Below are positions 33,638 to 42,744 of a DNA stretch of 58,104 nt, piece by piece. This DNA is from Methanoregulaceae archaeon (GTDB taxonomy: Archaea > Halobacteriota > Methanomicrobia > Methanomicrobiales > Methanospirillaceae): positions 1 through 58,104 of the forward strand of contig JAJFVA010000040.1 in the NCBI GenBank assembly GCA_021371995.1, given 5' to 3'. Positions within the stretch are counted from its first letter, which is position 1. The number at the start of each line of letters is the position of its first letter. Both the position numbers and the translations under genes were made by a program. A model generated the notes under the pieces. That model worked only from the letters and a program-made list of their open reading frames with translations. It ran no database searches and was not told the DNA's origin.

Positions 33638-34288
33638 ATGCGCAGGCAGGAAAAGGGAGATCCGGCGCAAGGCACGACACCCCTTCTGACAGATCCGCCG
33701 TTCTACCTCCCGGAGTTTGAAACGTCATACCGCTATATTATTGACGAATATGAGGTGACTCCCCGGGAGATTGCCATCTTCATTCCGTGTGCGGTTCGCA
33801 AGCCTTACAGTACAAGCCCGAGCCATCAGCTGATCCGGATGATCATTTCACAGGTTCTCTCACCGTCCCAATACCATATCGTCGTCTTTGGGACCTGCGG
33901 CATTGTCCCCGCAGAGCTCGAGGAGATGTACCCGTATGCGCATTATCGGTACATGCTCGGGAAATGCACCGATGAAACGATAAAGGAGGATTTTTTGCGT
34001 ATCGAGACAGAACGGGTGGCAGGATACCTTGAAAAGACACGGTATGCCTACACCTGCCGGATTGGGTATTGCCTGGGTCTCTTCCGTGAAGCCCTCATCA
34101 GGGGTTCAAAGCAGGCAAAAATCCCGATCGATCTCCTTCTTCCAAGCCGTGACAGAATTAATAAAATTATCGAGGAAGAGGACTGTTCATTCCAGGAAGG
34201 AAGTCTCTCCATGGATGAATACCTTGGCGAGTTCTGTACCGAGCTGATCAGGTTCCGGAATTCCCTGAAAAAAGACTCCCGGGAATAA
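33638..34288 (+). CDS. Archaeosine synthase-like DUF5591 domain protein
   Basis: A 216-residue protein matching the DUF5591 domain found in archaeosine synthase (ArcS) and related TGT paralogs. The core is IFIPCAVRKPYSTSPSHQL, where ArcS-type proteins have a PC-S/A-KPYS motif, followed by the VVFGTCGIVPAELEEMYPYAHY stretch. In ArcS this region carries the amidinotransferase centre that turns preQ0 in tRNA to archaeosine. Here it stands alone without TGT-like or PUA domains, so it may work with a separate subunit or on another substrate. The likely start is ATG 33638. Confidence 0.75.
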   Translation: MRRQEKGDPAQGTTPLLTDPPFYLPEFETSYRYIIDEYEVTPREIAIFIPCAVRKPYSTSPSHQLIRMIISQVLSPSQYHIVVFGTCGIVPAELEEMYPYAHYRYMLGKCTDETIKEDFLRIETERVAGYLEKTRYAYTCRIGYCLGLFREALIRGSKQAKIPIDLLLPSRDRINKIIEEEDCSFQEGSLSMDEYLGEFCTELIRFRNSLKKDSRE

Positions 34289-34388: not shown

Positions 34389-34667
34389 TTATCCCCCCGC
34401 TACCGGTGGGAATACCGCAATCTCGTCTCCCTCACTGATATAAATCAAATCGGCATCCTGTGACCGGATCCTTTTCTTATTCCGCATCACGATCACAAAA
34501 TTCCGGAATGCTCCTGTTTCATCAAAGATTGCATCATACCCTGCCTTGTTCCCGGCTGCAGCCTCCCTCACGAGACCGGCAACCGACATGCCTTCCCTGC
34601 CCTCAATGCAGAGGGAATTTCCGAGCAGTTCCCCGAATCGGGCAAAAAAACGGAGTTTCACCTTCAT
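34389..34667 (-). CDS. MoaD/ThiS-like ubiquitin-fold sulfur carrier
   Basis: A 92-residue beta-grasp protein ending FPPVAGG. The C-terminal Gly-Gly is adenylated by an E1-like enzyme and then turned into a thiocarboxylate that donates sulfur. The start KVKLRFFARFGELLG is characteristic of MoaD, the small subunit of molybdopterin synthase. ATG 34667 was chosen because it gives the family N-terminus. The E1-like gene lies directly upstream and its stop codon is 5 bases before this start, so the pair probably works together. Confidence 0.9.
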   Translation of the reverse strand: MKVKLRFFARFGELLGNSLCIEGREGMSVAGLVREAAAGNKAGYDAIFDETGAFRNFVIVMRNKKRIRSQDADLIYISEGDEIAVFPPVAGG

Positions 34668-34672
34668 GATAA

Positions 34673-35413
34673 TCAATGCTCCGGGGGGGCCCTGCCGGCG
34701 CAATCCTCGCAGGAGGGATCTTTCTCGATTGCTATCTCTTCAACGCGGGCCTGCATCCCGTCCCAGAGGAGGAGCCGGTTTGCCAGCAGTTCCCCCTTAC
34801 AAAGGAGATACTTGCATACCTCGGTTGCCTGTACCATGCCGATGAACCCCGCAGTCACCCCGGCGACAGGAAAGACTTCACGGGGCGGGGGATGGGGAAA
34901 AATACAACGGAGACATGGTGTTTCTCCCGGGATGATCGTGGTTGCCTGGCCGAAAAATCCACTGATTCCCCCGTGAAAGAGGGGGATGTCCTTCTCGATT
35001 GCGATCCTGTTGAGAAGATACCGGGTGGGATAGTTATCCAGTGCATCGACAATTCCGTCAGCGGTGTCCGTCAGGGAATGAACCGTGGTGGCATCAATGG
35101 TTGCATCGATCGCTTTCACCGTGATATCCGGGTTGAGTGCTTCAAGTCTGTCTCCTGCTGACACCGATTTTCTCCGCCCGATATCCCGCTCTCCATGGAG
35201 GATCTGCCGGTTCAGGTTTGTTCGCTCAACCGTATCATTGTCAGCAAGGATGATGGTGCCCACCCCGAGCACGGCAAGGTATACCGCTACAGGGGATCCG
35301 AGACCTCCTGCCCCGGCAATGAATATGGTGGCATCCTTCAGCAGTTCCTGCCCCTCATCTCCAAAGAGCATCATCTGCCGCGAATACCGCTCGCGCTCAC
35401 GGGAGGAAAGCAG
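34673..35413 (-). CDS. MoeB/ThiF-like E1 adenylyltransferase with probable CTG start
   Basis: A 246-residue E1-like enzyme that adenylates the MoaD/ThiS-like partner. The ATP-binding IAGAGGLGSP, the arginine-rich ERTNLNRQILH and the zinc pairs CLRC and CEDC are all present. The family N-terminus (RERERYSRQMMLFGDEG) begins 13 codons before the first ATG, 35374. In that frame no ATG, GTG or TTG precedes it, but CTG 35413 does, with an ideal AAGGAGGAG ribosome site six bases upstream. So either CTG is the start or a start mutation has happened. A 21-codon ORF from ATG 35436 in another frame ends at the ATG 35374 and could be a leader, but the SD matches the CTG better. Confidence 0.88.
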   Translation of the reverse strand: MLSSRERERYSRQMMLFGDEGQELLKDATIFIAGAGGLGSPVAVYLAVLGVGTIILADNDTVERTNLNRQILHGERDIGRRKSVSAGDRLEALNPDITVKAIDATIDATTVHSLTDTADGIVDALDNYPTRYLLNRIAIEKDIPLFHGGISGFFGQATTIIPGETPCLRCIFPHPPPREVFPVAGVTAGFIGMVQATEVCKYLLCKGELLANRLLLWDGMQARVEEIAIEKDPSCEDCAGRAPPEH

Positions 35414-35746
35414 GGAGATCTCCTCCTTTCCACCATTGCAGTTCCTCCCTGCAGGGGATGTTTGTTCTCCCGCAAAGACCCGGCAACAGTATTTTCTCTC
35501 TCATGGCAGTTCCGCTGATATACTCCGGAGTTTTCCCTCATGGAATAAAAAATGAATCATTCCAGCCTGTATATCTAATCACATTCAGGGAAGGTAAAGT
35601 GAATAACCTTGTACCCCAAACCTGTAATATCCAACAGCAAACGAGGGATGAGGAGAATCGTATACCGGAGCTGGAAAGGGCGCTCCTTGATCCCGGCCTG
35701 TTGTTTCCGCGCACCCCTCCCGGATGACCTTTCAAACCCCCGGACC

Positions 35747-36583
35747 ATGACAGATACCATAAATGATACCAGAATGAAAGCCCTTACAGGGCGTATCTCC
35801 GAATGCGGAGGCCTTCTGATTGCCTTCTCCGGAGGTGTTGACAGCGGTCTCCTTGCAGCATTGGCAAAGGAGATCCTGGGCGAAAATGTCCATGCTGTAT
35901 TTATCGACGGTCCCCTGGAGCCAAGATCGGCTGTCCGCGAGGCGCAGCAGATGGCGGGGGACCTTGACCTGTCGCTTGAAATCATCAGTGTCCCGTTTCC
36001 TGACGATACGGTCTGCAGCAATCTTCCTGACCGCTGTTATCATTGTAAAAAGTCCTGGTCGCAGGTTCTGAGAAGACGGGCAGCGGAACTCGGCCTCTCC
36101 TGCGTGGCTGACGGTGCCAATTTTTCTGATGAGTCCGAACACCGCCCCGGTATCCGTGCATCCACGGAAGAGGGAATCATTCACCCGTTTATCGAAGCAG
36201 GGATGACAAAGGCCGATATCAGATACATCGCACGGGAACGCGGTCTTCCGTTCTGGGACAAGCCATCGGCTGCCTGCCTCGCTTCCCGAATCCCGTACGG
36301 GGAAACGATAACGGATGAGAAACTCCGTATGGTTGAAGCGGCCGAAAACATTCTTCATAAAGAAGGCTTTTGTGGGATCCGTGTGCGTATTCATGGAGGA
36401 ATCGCGAGGATAGAAGTAACGGGAGGGGATATGCACCTGCTCATTGCAATGCGGGACCGGATTGTGCCCATCATGAAAGAGGCCGGTTTCTCCTACGTTA
36501 CCCTTGACCTCGAGGGATATCGCAGCGGGAGCATGGATGAAGCACTCTATTCGGGCAGGTCTTTTGAAAAGAAGGGATCCTGA
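35747..36583 (+). CDS. larE: LarE-family ATP-dependent sacrificial sulfur transferase
   Basis: A 278-residue PP-loop enzyme ([13 protein letters not shown]) of the LarE family. In lactate racemase maturation LarE adds sulfur to a pyridinium dinucleotide. Cys97 and Cys100 (CYHC) and Cys177 (ACLASR) form the three-cysteine set known from LarE forms that bind a [4Fe-4S] cluster and use external sulfide, rather than the one-cysteine sacrificial type. No larA, larB or larC is in the window. The gene shares its stop with the start of thiM (TGATG), so here it may serve another sulfur-transfer task. The ATG at 35747 is preferred; a later ATG at 35774 is possible. Confidence 0.88.
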
Positions 36584-37392
36584 TGGATAAAACCTCCTGT
36601 GCCGGGCTGTTCTCCCTTGTGCGGCAGAAGCGGCCCCTGGTGCACCATATCACCAATCTTGTCACCATCAATGACTGCGCAAACATCACTCTTTGTGCCG
36701 GTGCCTCTCCTGTGATGGCAGAGGCTCCTGAAGAGGCAGCGGAAATGGTCGCTGTTTCAGGTGCCCTCGTCCTCAATATCGGGACCCTCTCGTTGGTACA
36801 GGTCGAATCCATGATCCTTGCAGGTTCCCGGGCAAATGAACTCGGGATCCCGGTCATCCTCGACCCGGTGGGGGCCGGGGCAACCCGGATGCGGACGAAA
36901 GTGGTGTTCCACCTCCTCGAGGAACTTGATATCGCAATCCTCAAGGGAAATCCGGGTGAGATTGGGATTATTTCGGGGTTCGGCGGGACGGTACATGGCG
37001 TGGATTCGGGCGGGGTGAGCGGAGACCCGGTGAAGGCCGTTAGGGAATGTGCCCGGATAACCGGTGCCGTTGTCGCGATGACGGGGGAAATTGATATCGT
37101 TGCCGATGAACGGCGTGTCTTTCTTATCGGGAACGGGACCCCTATGCTGGGGGAACTTTCCGGGACTGGTTGCATGGCATCTTCTGTCACCGGTGCATTT
37201 GCCGCAGTCTCGGATGACCTGACCACTGCAGCGGTTGCCGCCCTTGCAGCTTTCGGGCTTGCAGGCGAACGGGCTGCGGCACGATGCTTCGGCCCATACT
37301 CGTTCCGGACAGCACTCTTCGATGGGATGTATACTCTTACCCCTGGAGATCTGGCAGCTGGGGCAAAGGTGAGAGTGCCGGATGGCGTATGA
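36583..37392 (+). CDS. thiM: Hydroxyethylthiazole kinase
   Basis: A 269-residue kinase that phosphorylates hydroxyethylthiazole for thiamine salvage. The family motifs [47 protein letters not shown] and [16 protein letters not shown] (anion hole and catalytic Cys region) are all intact. It is a trimer in the cytoplasm. It overlaps larE by one base and thiE by 11 bases, so the three form one operon. Confidence 0.96.
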
Positions 37393-38026
37393 CCTTTACG
37401 TCATCACCGACCGGGTGATAGCCCGCGGGCTGTCCCATGCCGAGATTGCCCGCCGTGTAATTGACGGGGGTGCCGATGTGATACAGCTTCGTGATAAAAG
37501 CCTCCCGTGCGGCGACCTCGTAGCAGCAGGATGCGAGATCCGGGAGATAACCCGGGAGGCAGGGGCGCTCTTTATCGTAAACGATCGTCTTGATATTGCC
37601 CTTGCATCAGGAGCAGATGGTGTCCACCTCGGGCAGGATGATCTTCCGGTCCGGCATGCGAAAAGGATCGCTCCGCCAGGTTTCATTATTGGTGTCTCGG
37701 TCGGATGCATTGCTGATGCGGTCGCTGCCGAATCTGCCGGGGCGGGGTATGTCGCGCTCAGCCCGACATTCCCAACTACTTCAAAGGAGGATGCCGGGCC
37801 ATGTCACGGGACTACGGTACTTCGTGGGATCTGTTCTTCGGTTTCCCTCCCCGTCATTGCAATCGGGGGGATATCACCCCGTAATGTGCCGGAGGTCATT
37901 GCGGCCGGTGCTGATGGGGTGGCTGTGATCTCATCGGTTGTCGGGCAGGAGGATATCACCGGGGCTGTACGGCAGATGAAAGCGATCATCAGGAATGCCA
38001 AAGCCGGAAACGATCATGCCGGATGA
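37382..38026 (+). CDS. thiE: Thiamine-phosphate synthase
   Basis: A 214-residue TIM-barrel enzyme joining hydroxymethylpyrimidine diphosphate with hydroxyethylthiazole phosphate. Motifs [32 protein letters not shown] and [23 protein letters not shown] are all present, with the phosphate-binding GGI loop. Length is normal. It overlaps the end of thiM, so it is translated with it. This is the usual archaeal salvage pair thiM-thiE. Confidence 0.96.
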
Positions 38027-39227: not shown

Positions 39228-40007
39228 ATGTGGAAAACCCTGCCCTGTATCAGGGTCGACGGAGAGATTCGCGAAAAGACCACCCATGAAGTCATTGAGG
39301 AGCTGCCGGTAGCCCTGTTTATCAACGGGCGCCATGCAATGACTGCAATGATGAGCCCGGTGATGCTTGAGGATTTTGTCACAGGATATCTCTTCACCGA
39401 GCAGATTATCAGGGCTGCAGATGAAATCGAATCGATAAAGATCGAGAAGAACCGGATCAGCGTGATCACGAAAAATCTTTTCAGGGCTACCGGCCAGAAA
39501 AAGACCATCCTTTCAGGGTGCGGCGGGAGTACCTCCTCTATCGATCCGGAAAATCTCCCGAAGATCAAATCAGGATTCAGGATGCCCGTCGATCTCATTC
39601 GCATGCTGGTAAACGAGGTACTGACATCCGATCTCCATGTCAGAACCGGGGGCATTCACCTTGTCGGACTTGCCGGTGCAGACGGGCTGATAACCCGGTC
39701 GGAGGATATCGGCCGGCATAATGCCCTGGACCGGGTAATCGGGTACGGGTTGCGCACCGGCACCGATTTTTCACAGACCTGTGTCATCTCATCGGGGCGA
39801 ATCTCCTCCGAGATGGTCCGGAAATGCCTGGTTGCCAATATCCCTGTCATCATCTCACGGGGTGCCACGACAACCCTTGCGGTTGAGGTCGCTTTGAAAG
39901 GTGGCGTCTGCATCATCGGGTTTGCCCGGGGGTCCCGGATGCGGGTGTACACTCATGCCGGGCGGGTGGAAGGGCTCGGGGCTCTCGATCCTGAATCTGA
40001 AGCGTAA
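39228..40007 (+). CDS. fdhD: FdhD formate dehydrogenase accessory sulfurtransferase
   Basis: A 259-residue FdhD-like protein, which in bacteria carries sulfur from a cysteine desulfurase to the bis-MGD cofactor of formate dehydrogenase. Motifs are VALFINGRHAMTAMMSP, EDFVTGYLFTEQII, RTGGIHLVGL, EDIGRHNALDRVIG and SGRISSEMVRKC. The catalytic region reads SGCGGS, with a single Cys in place of the CxxC of the Escherichia coli protein. The downstream convergent gene encodes a desulfurase fusion, which fits a sulfur relay. In methanogens the target is likely the Mo/W formate or formylmethanofuran dehydrogenases. Confidence 0.93.
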   Translation: MWKTLPCIRVDGEIREKTTHEVIEELPVALFINGRHAMTAMMSPVMLEDFVTGYLFTEQIIRAADEIESIKIEKNRISVITKNLFRATGQKKTILSGCGGSTSSIDPENLPKIKSGFRMPVDLIRMLVNEVLTSDLHVRTGGIHLVGLAGADGLITRSEDIGRHNALDRVIGYGLRTGTDFSQTCVISSGRISSEMVRKCLVANIPVIISRGATTTLAVEVALKGGVCIIGFARGSRMRVYTHAGRVEGLGALDPESEA

Positions 40008-40110: not shown

Positions 40111-42744
40111 TCAGATTCCACGGCAGATTGCCCGTATCCCGGCGATAAGGAGATCGATCTCCTGTTCGGTGGTGTAGAGGGCAGAACTTGCCCTGACCGT
40201 ACCGTTGGCAAGCCCGAGATACTCCATCAGGGGCTGGCAGCAATGGTATCCTGATCTGACGAGGATATCGGCCTGATCATCCAGCTGCTGGGCAACCTCA
40301 TGGGGGTGCAGCCCCTCAACTGTGAAGGAAACCACCCCGATCCGGGCCTCGGGTCGTTTTGTAGCATATACCCTGACTTTTTCAATTCCCTCCAGCCCTT
40401 CAATCAGCCTGCCGGCCAGGTTTCCTTCATGCCGGTGGATGCGGTCCATTCCTATCGCCGTAAGGTATTCTGCCGCGACACCAAGCCCGATTCCTCCGGA
40501 AATATTCGGGGTCCCGGCTTCATAGGTTTCATACCCTCCGGCCGGAATATACCCGTCCGCGGTGACGGACTCGACCATTCCTCCGCCAAGCATCGATGGT
40601 TCGATTACCGGTTCCTTCATCCAGAGCACGCCGGTTCCGGTCGGCCCGAGCATCTTGTGCCCGGAGAAGCATAAGAAATCACAGTCCAGCTGCCGGACAT
40701 CCACCGGGAGGTGGGGGACGGACTGCGCCCCGTCCACAAGCAGGAGTGCCCCGTTCTTCCTGCACATCCGGGAAACCTCTCCGACCGGTGTGATCACTCC
40801 GAGCGCGTTTGAGGCATGGGTCAGCGTGACCAGGCGGACCGGTTTGGAGAATGCTGTCTCAAGGGCTTCAAGATCGAGCGAGTAATCCCTGTTGATCCCG
40901 ATAACTTCGAGATCCACACCCTGACTGGATAGCGCCCGCCAGGGAAGAAGGTTTGAATGGTGCTCAAGGATGGTGGTAACAACCCGGTCTCCAGGGTTCC
41001 ATGAAAGGCCGCTGGCGACCATGTTGATGGCCTCGGTCGTGTTTTTGGTAAATACCGTGGTCCCGTGGGTTCCGTTGATAAGTTTTGCCACCTTCTCGTG
41101 GGCATGCCAGTATCGCTGGGTGGCAATCCGGGTATACCGGTGCACCCCGCGTCCTACGTTGGCACGATAGCGGTGCTCGAATTCAACCATTGCCTCAACA
41201 ACAGGTTCCGGTGAAAAACCGGTTGCAGCATTGTCAAGGTACATGACATCCCCAAGAATAGGAAAGTCCTTCCTGATCTCCTCGACCGCCAGAAGGTCGC
41301 GGCCTGTCTCTTTTGTTTCCGGTACCATAGTGCTCTCTCTCGCGCTGTCGCCAGTTTTTCTCCGTCCGGGGCCGGTTTTAAGGGTGTAATCATCGTTCAG
41401 CAGAATGCCCCTGTTCCTGCAGAGTTCCCGCATTTTCGGGGGGAGAGCCCGCCACCGCCAGAGTCCCCAGCGGCGGTATTCATCAGGCAGCCCTTTTTTA
41501 TCGGCCCACCGGTCGAGGAAATCATCCCACCGCCGGGCATATTCCGGGTGCAGTCTTCTGAGTTCCTCGTACTCACTCTCAAGCATTGCCGGGCAGACCA
41601 TGCACCCGATCCGCTCGATCCCCTCCTCGTAAAGCGGATTGATGGGGGCATCCTGCCACCAGAGGTACAGAAATACCTCCAGTGCCCGCCAGCTTCGAAT
41701 CGGCGAGATGTTCAACTGCAGGGGGTTTGCCGGGTTCTGGCTGGTCTCATCGAGATCGGCCCGGTTCCATGACTCATACCAACGGTTCCCCTGCACCGTG
41801 ACGCAGGGGCCGGTGGTCTCAAGGTAGATCTTAAGGGGGTGAAGTTTTTGGAGCTTGCAGCACCAGCGGTGATCTTTTCCGGGCGGTCCCGCCTTCTCTG
41901 ATGCCTGCCAGAAGTCGGCCGCCTTTTTGATCATCTCCACTCCCTGGGACTCCACAAACTCCAGGGTCTCGGGAAACTCGATACCGGTGTCGATGAAAAA
42001 CGCCTTTGTTACCCCCGCTTTCCTTGCAAGGATAAGGGCTGCCATGCTGTCCTTTCCTCCTGAAAAGGAGACGTTGATGCAGGGGCGGTCATGCATATGT
42101 TGCCGTATGGTGCGGACCGCATTCCGCTCAAGGTTCTTCAGGTGGTAACGGTTCTGCCTGATGGCAACACTCCAGTCCGGATCAGGGGGTGCCCGGGGTG
42201 TCACGGGCATCACCTCCTTCACCCGGATGTATCCTTCCTTTACTACACCGGTCCCGAACCGTTTTTTATACGCGACAATGACGGTCCCGTCTTCCACTGT
42301 TGTTCTGAGGGGGAACCGTTTCCCCCCGATCCTTCCCGGATCTCCCCCGATAGTGGTATCAGTGCTGATATTGACGATGCCCCGGGTGGCATGCGGGATC
42401 AGGTACGGGAGGGCTTCCGGTGCGATATCCAGGCTGAACCTGCGGCTCACCGGGTCAAATGTCAGCCAGCCAAACCTGTCCCCGTGCATGATGACAAGGT
42501 CGGCCCGGTCGAGCCCCCCTGTCTTGTTCAGGAGGATAATTTCTGGCAGCGGGATGGGACCGAACCGTTCGTGCACGAGGCTTTTGATCAACTCCCTGTC
42601 TGCATCAAGCGCCGGGCGGACGTCATACGGTTGCAGGAGGGAGATGGCCCGCCCCTCTGCTCCGCACCCGCAGCTACGCCCGATAAGCGGGACATTGCAG
42701 TGATCACACCAGTACAGGGTTTTTTTGACCGCCGGTTCTCGCAT
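40111..42744 (-). CDS. PP-loop PAPS-reductase-like / cysteine desulfurase fusion
   Basis: An 877-residue two-enzyme protein. Residues 13-30 hold a zinc-ribbon-like CxxC...CGC cluster, residues about 90-185 a small beta domain that may be PUA-like, and residues about 205-420 a PAPS reductase-family PP-loop domain (SFSGGKDSMAA near 228-238, WCCK 297, CMVC 383-386). Residues 485-877 are a complete SufS-type class V desulfurase: EHHSN, DGAQSVPH, PLP lysine in SGHKMLG (about 697), catalytic Cys in SGYHCC (about 835). So it can make persulfide and hold an adenylating PP-loop site in one chain, as needed for thiolation of a tRNA or cofactor. ATG 42744 is preferred; GTG 42750 is two codons upstream. 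No frameshift joins the halves. Confidence 0.92.
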   Translation of the reverse strand: MREPAVKKTLYWCDHCNVPLIGRSCGCGAEGRAISLLQPYDVRPALDADRELIKSLVHERFGPIPLPEIILLNKTGGLDRADLVIMHGDRFGWLTFDPVSRRFSLDIAPEALPYLIPHATRGIVNISTDTTIGGDPGRIGGKRFPLRTTVEDGTVIVAYKKRFGTGVVKEGYIRVKEVMPVTPRAPPDPDWSVAIRQNRYHLKNLERNAVRTIRQHMHDRPCINVSFSGGKDSMAALILARKAGVTKAFFIDTGIEFPETLEFVESQGVEMIKKAADFWQASEKAGPPGKDHRWCCKLQKLHPLKIYLETTGPCVTVQGNRWYESWNRADLDETSQNPANPLQLNISPIRSWRALEVFLYLWWQDAPINPLYEEGIERIGCMVCPAMLESEYEELRRLHPEYARRWDDFLDRWADKKGLPDEYRRWGLWRWRALPPKMRELCRNRGILLNDDYTLKTGPGRRKTGDSARESTMVPETKETGRDLLAVEEIRKDFPILGDVMYLDNAATGFSPEPVVEAMVEFEHRYRANVGRGVHRYTRIATQRYWHAHEKVAKLINGTHGTTVFTKNTTEAINMVASGLSWNPGDRVVTTILEHHSNLLPWRALSSQGVDLEVIGINRDYSLDLEALETAFSKPVRLVTLTHASNALGVITPVGEVSRMCRKNGALLLVDGAQSVPHLPVDVRQLDCDFLCFSGHKMLGPTGTGVLWMKEPVIEPSMLGGGMVESVTADGYIPAGGYETYEAGTPNISGGIGLGVAAEYLTAIGMDRIHRHEGNLAGRLIEGLEGIEKVRVYATKRPEARIGVVSFTVEGLHPHEVAQQLDDQADILVRSGYHCCQPLMEYLGLANGTVRASSALYTTEQEIDLLIAGIRAICRGI

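Follow-up and report, generated by a model that had tools for sequence, protein, structure and literature searches.

The gene located at positions 40111-42744 on the minus strand of the window (the whole stretch of DNA analysed, 58,104 nucleotides in length) encodes a single protein, in which a PP-loop domain, preceded by a zinc ribbon and a PUA-like region, is fused to a SufS-type cysteine desulfurase. We propose, with confidence and doubt about equally matched, that this protein transfers sulfur from a cysteine-derived supply of its own; it would carry out ATP-using thiolation while its SufS domain also feeds FdhD. The fusion itself was already known; new here are the arguments against a sulfate-pathway reductase, the single origin of the fusion and its linkage to fdhD, and the exchange of C-terminal tails on one and the same N-terminal half.

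Domain organization of the fusion protein

The mechanical open reading frame (42750-40111, minus strand) begins with GTG and encodes 879 residues. An in-frame ATG at 42744, six bases downstream, gives 877 residues up to the stop ending at 40111, and homologues start at about the residue of this ATG. Residue numbers throughout are those of the 879-residue frame, and all features described in this section lie on the minus strand. The 877-residue chain with zinc ribbon, PP-loop domain and desulfurase, as described in the original prediction, which named no strand, is encoded by one in-frame gene.

The zinc ribbon (residues 12-31, 42658-42717) has the form C15-x2-C18...C27-x-C29 and is shared by the family and both paralogous groups; its four cysteines are kept in 52 of the 52-53 sequences extending this far. 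It is followed by a pre-PUA and diverged PUA-like region (residues 36-187, 42190-42645), presumed to bind RNA and assigned from the structural model, Foldseek and a paralogue. The PP-loop domain of the PAPS_reduct/COG0175 type (residues 193-455, 41386-42174) matches Pfam PF01507 over residues 225-388 (E=2e-35), and its nearest solved chains are CysD (1zun) and bacterial APS reductases. The PP-loop ATP-pyrophosphatase motif SGGKDS (residues 230-235, 42046-42063), which has the intact SGGxDS form of PP-loop activating enzymes, is present in 54/54 sequences and invariant in every subgroup. Two cysteine pairs, C297-C298 (41857-41862) and C383-x2-C386 (41593-41604), align with the CC and the CxxC of APS reductases and are presumed to form the first and second halves of a [4Fe-4S] site. 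Each pair was likewise found in 54/54 sequences, in agreement with the predicted combination of SGGKDS with cysteine pairs.

The linker (residues 456-486, 41293-41385) differs in length between genomes and is predicted to be disordered, with low pLDDT (below 50 at residues 462-484). The desulfurase domain (residues 487-878, 40117-41292) matches Aminotran_5 (PF00266) over residues 503-868 (E=4e-118). The active-site histidine H598, the PLP lysine K699 (40654-40656; 34/35 sequences) and the catalytic cysteine C838 in RSGxHC (40237-40239; 35/35) are conserved as in SufS-type enzymes, and the desulfurase, earlier described as complete, indeed looks catalytically complete from these residues. The match to TIGR01979 covers the full length of the model but, at 406 bits, lies below the curated cut-off of 475; the C-terminal half is therefore called 'SufS-type' and not SufS, although no family is closer to it than SufS in either sequence or fold. 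It folds as SufS, with T. onnurineus TON_0289 (5b7s, 5b87) as the nearest structure (Foldseek E=1.7e-39, 44-46% identity); the latter has the same fold and catalytic residues but is free-standing, unlike the fused, fdhD-adjacent domain described here. Both halves show almost no variation at catalytic and ligand residues. The AlphaFold model of the fusion had a mean pLDDT of 88 and a pTM of 0.56, with the arrangement of the domains not fixed.

Distribution and origin of the fusion

The search for this domain order in other genomes, suggested along with the original prediction, detected the same order in a single frame, either full-length or with a long linker, in at least 137 of 232 Methanomicrobiales genomes (a hand tally of the listed rows, including five genomes in which the linker is longer and the search reported two separate matches). 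A sequencing error was rejected as the origin of the fusion on the basis of this count. The apparent splits in G055, G114, G126, G128 and G167 were likewise rejected as separate genes, being long linkers instead. Full-length identity to the window protein goes down to about 55%, and the active-site residues are retained. One fusion copy (L053:732-1295) has an outlier N-terminus (32% identity, one row of that alignment matching HSDR_N), which is probably an assembly chimera in that contig.

In the tree of SufS halves, the fused copies all form one clade (99/99) that lies inside a larger group (100/99) of which the unfused members are mostly linked to fdhD. A quick tree of the N-terminal halves places the fused clade beside a lineage that is simply unfused. 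Inside the fused clade, G112, G120, G121, G130 and G208 are SufS-less, and true fission, with SufS as a separate adjacent gene, was found in G155 and G067; G066 and several MAG cases are near contig ends or ambiguous. The genus of the window itself includes both types, fused in G221, G223, G228 and G229 and unfused in G222, G224 and G227. Judged from these trees, the fusion is a single event, and its SufS domain descends from an fdhD-paired desulfurase.

The PP-loop half stands alone in many genomes, and at least two PF01507 matches were detected in each of the 31 relatives checked. The archaeal NCBIfam models PRK13795 and PRK08557 ('hypothetical protein') represent a homologous N-terminal half, in which the zinc ribbon, SGGKDS and CC...CxxC are likewise present. 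Their Methanosarcinales members end in two-cluster ferredoxin tails, in the place taken here by SufS, and the fusion scores below the equivalog cut-offs of these models, its best value being 389 against the 745 bits required for PRK13795. We regard the N-terminal half as an old core enzyme and SufS as one of several tails. Since this half occurs alone or with a ferredoxin tail, its job does not need SufS, and the exchange of tails (none, ferredoxin or SufS) on one enzyme amounts to a natural experiment on the requirements of that enzyme.

The same fusion is included as cluster 536, 'CysH-SufS', in a survey of archaeal fusions (PMC11237513, mSystems 2024), of which the passage on this cluster lists it as a sulfate-assimilation enzyme, exclusive to Methanomicrobiales with four unfused cases, and reports no functional test. 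That passage does not mention the zinc ribbon and PUA part, how the fusion is linked to fdhD or where its SufS half came from, all of which are given here.

Linkage of the desulfurase half to fdhD

The fdhD gene (39228-40007, plus strand; PF02634, E=1e-65) converges on the fusion gene with a gap of 103 nt, and its product is the probable client of the SufS half. By hand tally from coordinates, no more than 600 nt separate fdhD from the fusion in 19 of the 33 fused genomes examined, covering 10 genera, all six families and four arrangements: convergent in the window, G012, G013, G019, G046, G052, G053, G055, G056, G081, G082 and G198; upstream on the same strand in G103, G114 and G119; downstream on the same strand in G011 and G197; and divergent in G086 and G090. 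In contrast, fdhD was found beside none of the 21 unfused PP-loop genes, a number that leaves out G155 with its separate neighbouring SufS (Fisher p=5e-6, ignoring the kinship of genomes that are not phylogenetically independent). Among unfused SufS genes, counted in the same way, 7/8 of the same group adjoin fdhD against 0/6 of a more distant group (p=0.005, again ignoring kinship); in L151 and L153-L158, sufS and fdhD share a strand and are separated by about 5-12 nt. The presence of four arrangements in six families argues against inherited synteny alone.

The sulfur-relay context proposed for this locus is thus real, because fdhD adjacency recurs in every family and follows the SufS half, either fused or unfused. 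The accompanying proposal that both halves serve one FdhD-linked cofactor is not supported in that form: fdhD never adjoins a PP-loop gene that lacks SufS, and in many genomes the PP-loop gene has no SufS attached, indicating that the FdhD link belongs to SufS while the PP-loop substrate is to be sought elsewhere. In E. coli, a cysteine desulfurase is the sulfur source of FdhD (PMC6239281), and TON_0289 closes the fdh1-mfh1-mnh1 formate dehydrogenase/hydrogenase cluster (PMC4463584). Probably the SufS half serves FdhD; it would then be a candidate donor of the sulfur that methanogens need to mature formate dehydrogenase.

In one genus, two FdhD domains are present in one frame of 511-522 residues (G024:C1:992646-994034, G040:C10:129523-130905, G043:C1:229409-230788 and G027:C24:1779-3179), together with further FdhD copies, some of which are broken by stops.

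RNA binding and a model of sulfur transfer

The N-terminal region of about 200 residues was modelled by AlphaFold with a pLDDT of 92. The three best Foldseek matches of this model are archaeal proteins, all weak (E=0.02-0.09, best 0.019), and one of them, 2cx0, is titled as a PUA domain. No PUA domain was detected by Pfam in the fusion protein or in the 52 relatives scanned alongside, and a profile search of the N-terminus against PDB gave chance matches only. At the equivalent position, however, the paralogue in the same genome (L002) is matched by PUA models, those of ArcS and Cbf5 among them, and one match exceeds the cut-off (TIGR00451, 31.9 against 27 bits). The 'possible PUA' of the original prediction therefore found no Pfam match but gained indirect support from the paralogue and from the weak archaeal fold matches, and the region is probably of PUA type. 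Because of the zinc ribbon and this PUA-like region, RNA is the likely substrate of the PP-loop half, and we lean slightly toward the identification of this half as an RNA thiolase. Both ThiI and a PP-loop protein of ATP_bind_3 (the NcsA/TtuA superfamily) are present in 31/31 relatives, and replacement of either type by the fusion was dropped for this reason. With candidates at hand for the usual tRNA thiolations, the target is not an obviously vacant tRNA position.

In the proposed mechanism, the SufS domain would take sulfur from L-cysteine with PLP (K699) and hold the persulfide on C838, while the N-terminal half would bind the substrate, most likely RNA, through the zinc ribbon and the PUA-like region. 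The persulfide would then pass from C838 to the N-terminal half, in which C444 (41419-41421, minus strand) is the best candidate acceptor before transfer. At SGGKDS, ATP would activate (adenylate) the RNA base, and sulfur would then replace the activated oxygen. In parallel, the SufS domain would probably still give persulfide to FdhD in trans, sulfurating the formate dehydrogenase cofactor. C444 is nearly specific to the fused lineage, being present in 64/65 fused proteins, about 1/12 of the unfused class A and 1/11 of the ferredoxin-tailed orthologues. Unfused proteins that belong to the fused clade have largely retained it as well (7/8), so that shared descent may explain its conservation.

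For transfer of sulfur in cis from the SufS half to the PP-loop half, we see the balance as even; it would not be essential to the PP-loop half, which works without SufS in many genomes. The most complete form of the model is a relay on a single chain, from cysteine through the C838 persulfide and C444 to ATP-activated RNA, making a thionucleoside that has no assigned enzyme, with the PP-loop enzyme receiving electrons from its attached ferredoxin in Methanosarcinales and sulfur from its attached desulfurase in Methanomicrobiales; this form is offered as a speculation, and a rather doubtful one.

Alternatively, the chain may consist of two independent enzymes, the PP-loop half using free sulfide and SufS serving FdhD (perhaps also Moco or thiamin), with co-expression as the only effect of the fusion. 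Lone PP-loop genes are common, and no SufS-type desulfurase was found in G106, G109, G112, G100 and G124. The alternative is also in agreement with fdhD following SufS and not the PP-loop half, with the variable and disordered linker, and with the direct use of sulfide proposed for several thiolations in methanogens (PMC10067955). Against it, a single fusion has been kept over six families with the SufS half seldom lost, and a nearly specific cysteine, C444, marks the fused lineage. We consider this alternative unlikely, but serious enough to be weighed along with the proposed thiolation enzyme.

The proposed thiolation enzyme resembles the [4Fe-4S] tRNA thiolases NcsA, TtuA and TtcA in the ATP PP-loop, the presumed cluster and the logic of thiolation, but these belong to another PP-loop family, with three cluster cysteines and no fused desulfurase. 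NcsA is established in methanogens as a PP-loop thiolase with a [4Fe-4S] cluster, and the known [4Fe-4S] thiolases have three cysteines and a free iron site (PMC10067955); set against this, the fusion has four conserved cysteines, as in APS reductases, and the role of its cluster may differ. DndC, SspD and BrxP are members of the same PP-loop superfamily (BrxP 5e-37, SspD 9e-11, DndC 2e-4), and in DndA-DndC (DNA phosphorothioation) a desulfurase is likewise paired with a PP-loop protein. DndA-DndC, SspD and BrxP (BREX) belong to defence systems, whereas the gene described here belongs to the core and is nearly universal, and it encodes a zinc ribbon and a PUA-like region. A search of the literature found no experiments on any member of the family. 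If the fusion is a thiolation enzyme, it exposes an archaeal sulfur modification without an assigned enzyme and shows how cysteine can serve as a sulfur source in methanogens thought to depend on sulfide.

Relationship to sulfonucleotide reductases

In Methanomicrobiales, this core gene is classified with sulfate assimilation, though its hosts appear unable to activate sulfate. ATP sulfurylase was found in none of 31 relatives, and a convincing APS kinase in only one of the 31 (G012), the rest giving about 20-26 bits, mostly over about 50 residues. The window genome has no CysD, because its only two PF01507 proteins are the fusion and its paralogue, both of the zinc-ribbon type. The sulfate activation that would accompany an assimilatory APS/PAPS reductase (CysH) is thus missing from the genomes checked, and the family as a whole has no C-terminal catalytic cysteine of the ECG[IL]H type as in CysH. 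The motif CC...CxxC is common to the whole family and APS reductases, as is GxRxxES, and therefore the fold, and probably the cluster, are in common; from this alignment, a [4Fe-4S] cluster like that of APS reductases is probably bound at the site. Reductases resembling this PP-loop domain have lost SGGKDS, and the loss in the reductase is visible in the alignment to 2goy. The intact SGGKDS of the fusion argues for ATP-dependent activation and not for sulfonucleotide reduction.

The 2024 reading, CysH, takes the protein as an assimilatory APS/PAPS reductase with SufS attached; it draws on the name of the domain family and on the two conserved APS-reductase motifs, and the ferredoxin-tailed orthologues would suit a reductase. 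In addition, two M. jannaschii proteins, candidate relatives of this family, are reported to reduce APS/PAPS (references 44 and 45, as cited in PMC10322725). A literature search for MJ0066 found nothing. On account of the M. jannaschii reports this reading is retained, as an improbable one, in the face of the missing sulfate activation, the intact SGGKDS and the missing catalytic cysteine; it also leaves the PUA-like region and the zinc ribbon without explanation. The fusion is very probably not a sulfate-pathway reductase, and it is probably mislabelled by its family name.

Neighboring genes

Except for fdhD, the neighbors of the fusion are taken as context only. Those named in the original prediction were identified by matches to known families: larE (sulfur transferase; 35609-36583, plus strand; TIGR00268, 285 bits, cut-off 150) and the genes for a MoaD/SAMP-type small protein and a MoeB/ThiF-type E1 (34389-35374, minus strand; PF02597 of the ThiS/MoaD type and PF00899). 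Also near the fusion, but absent from that prediction, are thiM and thiE (36583-38026, plus strand; PF02110 and PF02581) and nadA. In the Methanoregula-type loci (L038-L065, for example L040, L043 and L045-L047), thiM and thiE are located 64-163 nt downstream of the fusion on the same strand. A thiamin-specific role as the main reading was dropped because thiM-thiE is directly downstream only in these loci. That the whole protein matures a sulfur-bearing cofactor (FdhD/Moco, the LarE product or thiamin), its PP-loop half activating the cofactor or a carrier, would fit fdhD adjoining it in 10 genera and moeB, moaD, larE, nadA, thiM and thiE nearby, but is improbable in view of the unfused PP-loop genes, which have purH and grpE-dnaK and never fdhD as neighbors, and of the same confinement of thiM-thiE.

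Some further observations were made around these genes. A 216-residue open reading frame of the window (33638-34288) matches only a part of the archaeosine synthase ArcS (the DUF5591 region). The standalone paralogue of class B (L142, L143 and L145-L149; G000:C11:56674-58023 in the window genome) is followed on the same strand by a hisH-like gene, in Methanomicrobiales and other orders, the hisH identity being by eye, with a negative Pfam query of 65 residues. In L150, L165, L166 and L170, covering several genera, the unfused PP-loop gene is divergent to a purH-like gene (MGS domain) and stands directly before grpE-dnaK(-dnaJ).
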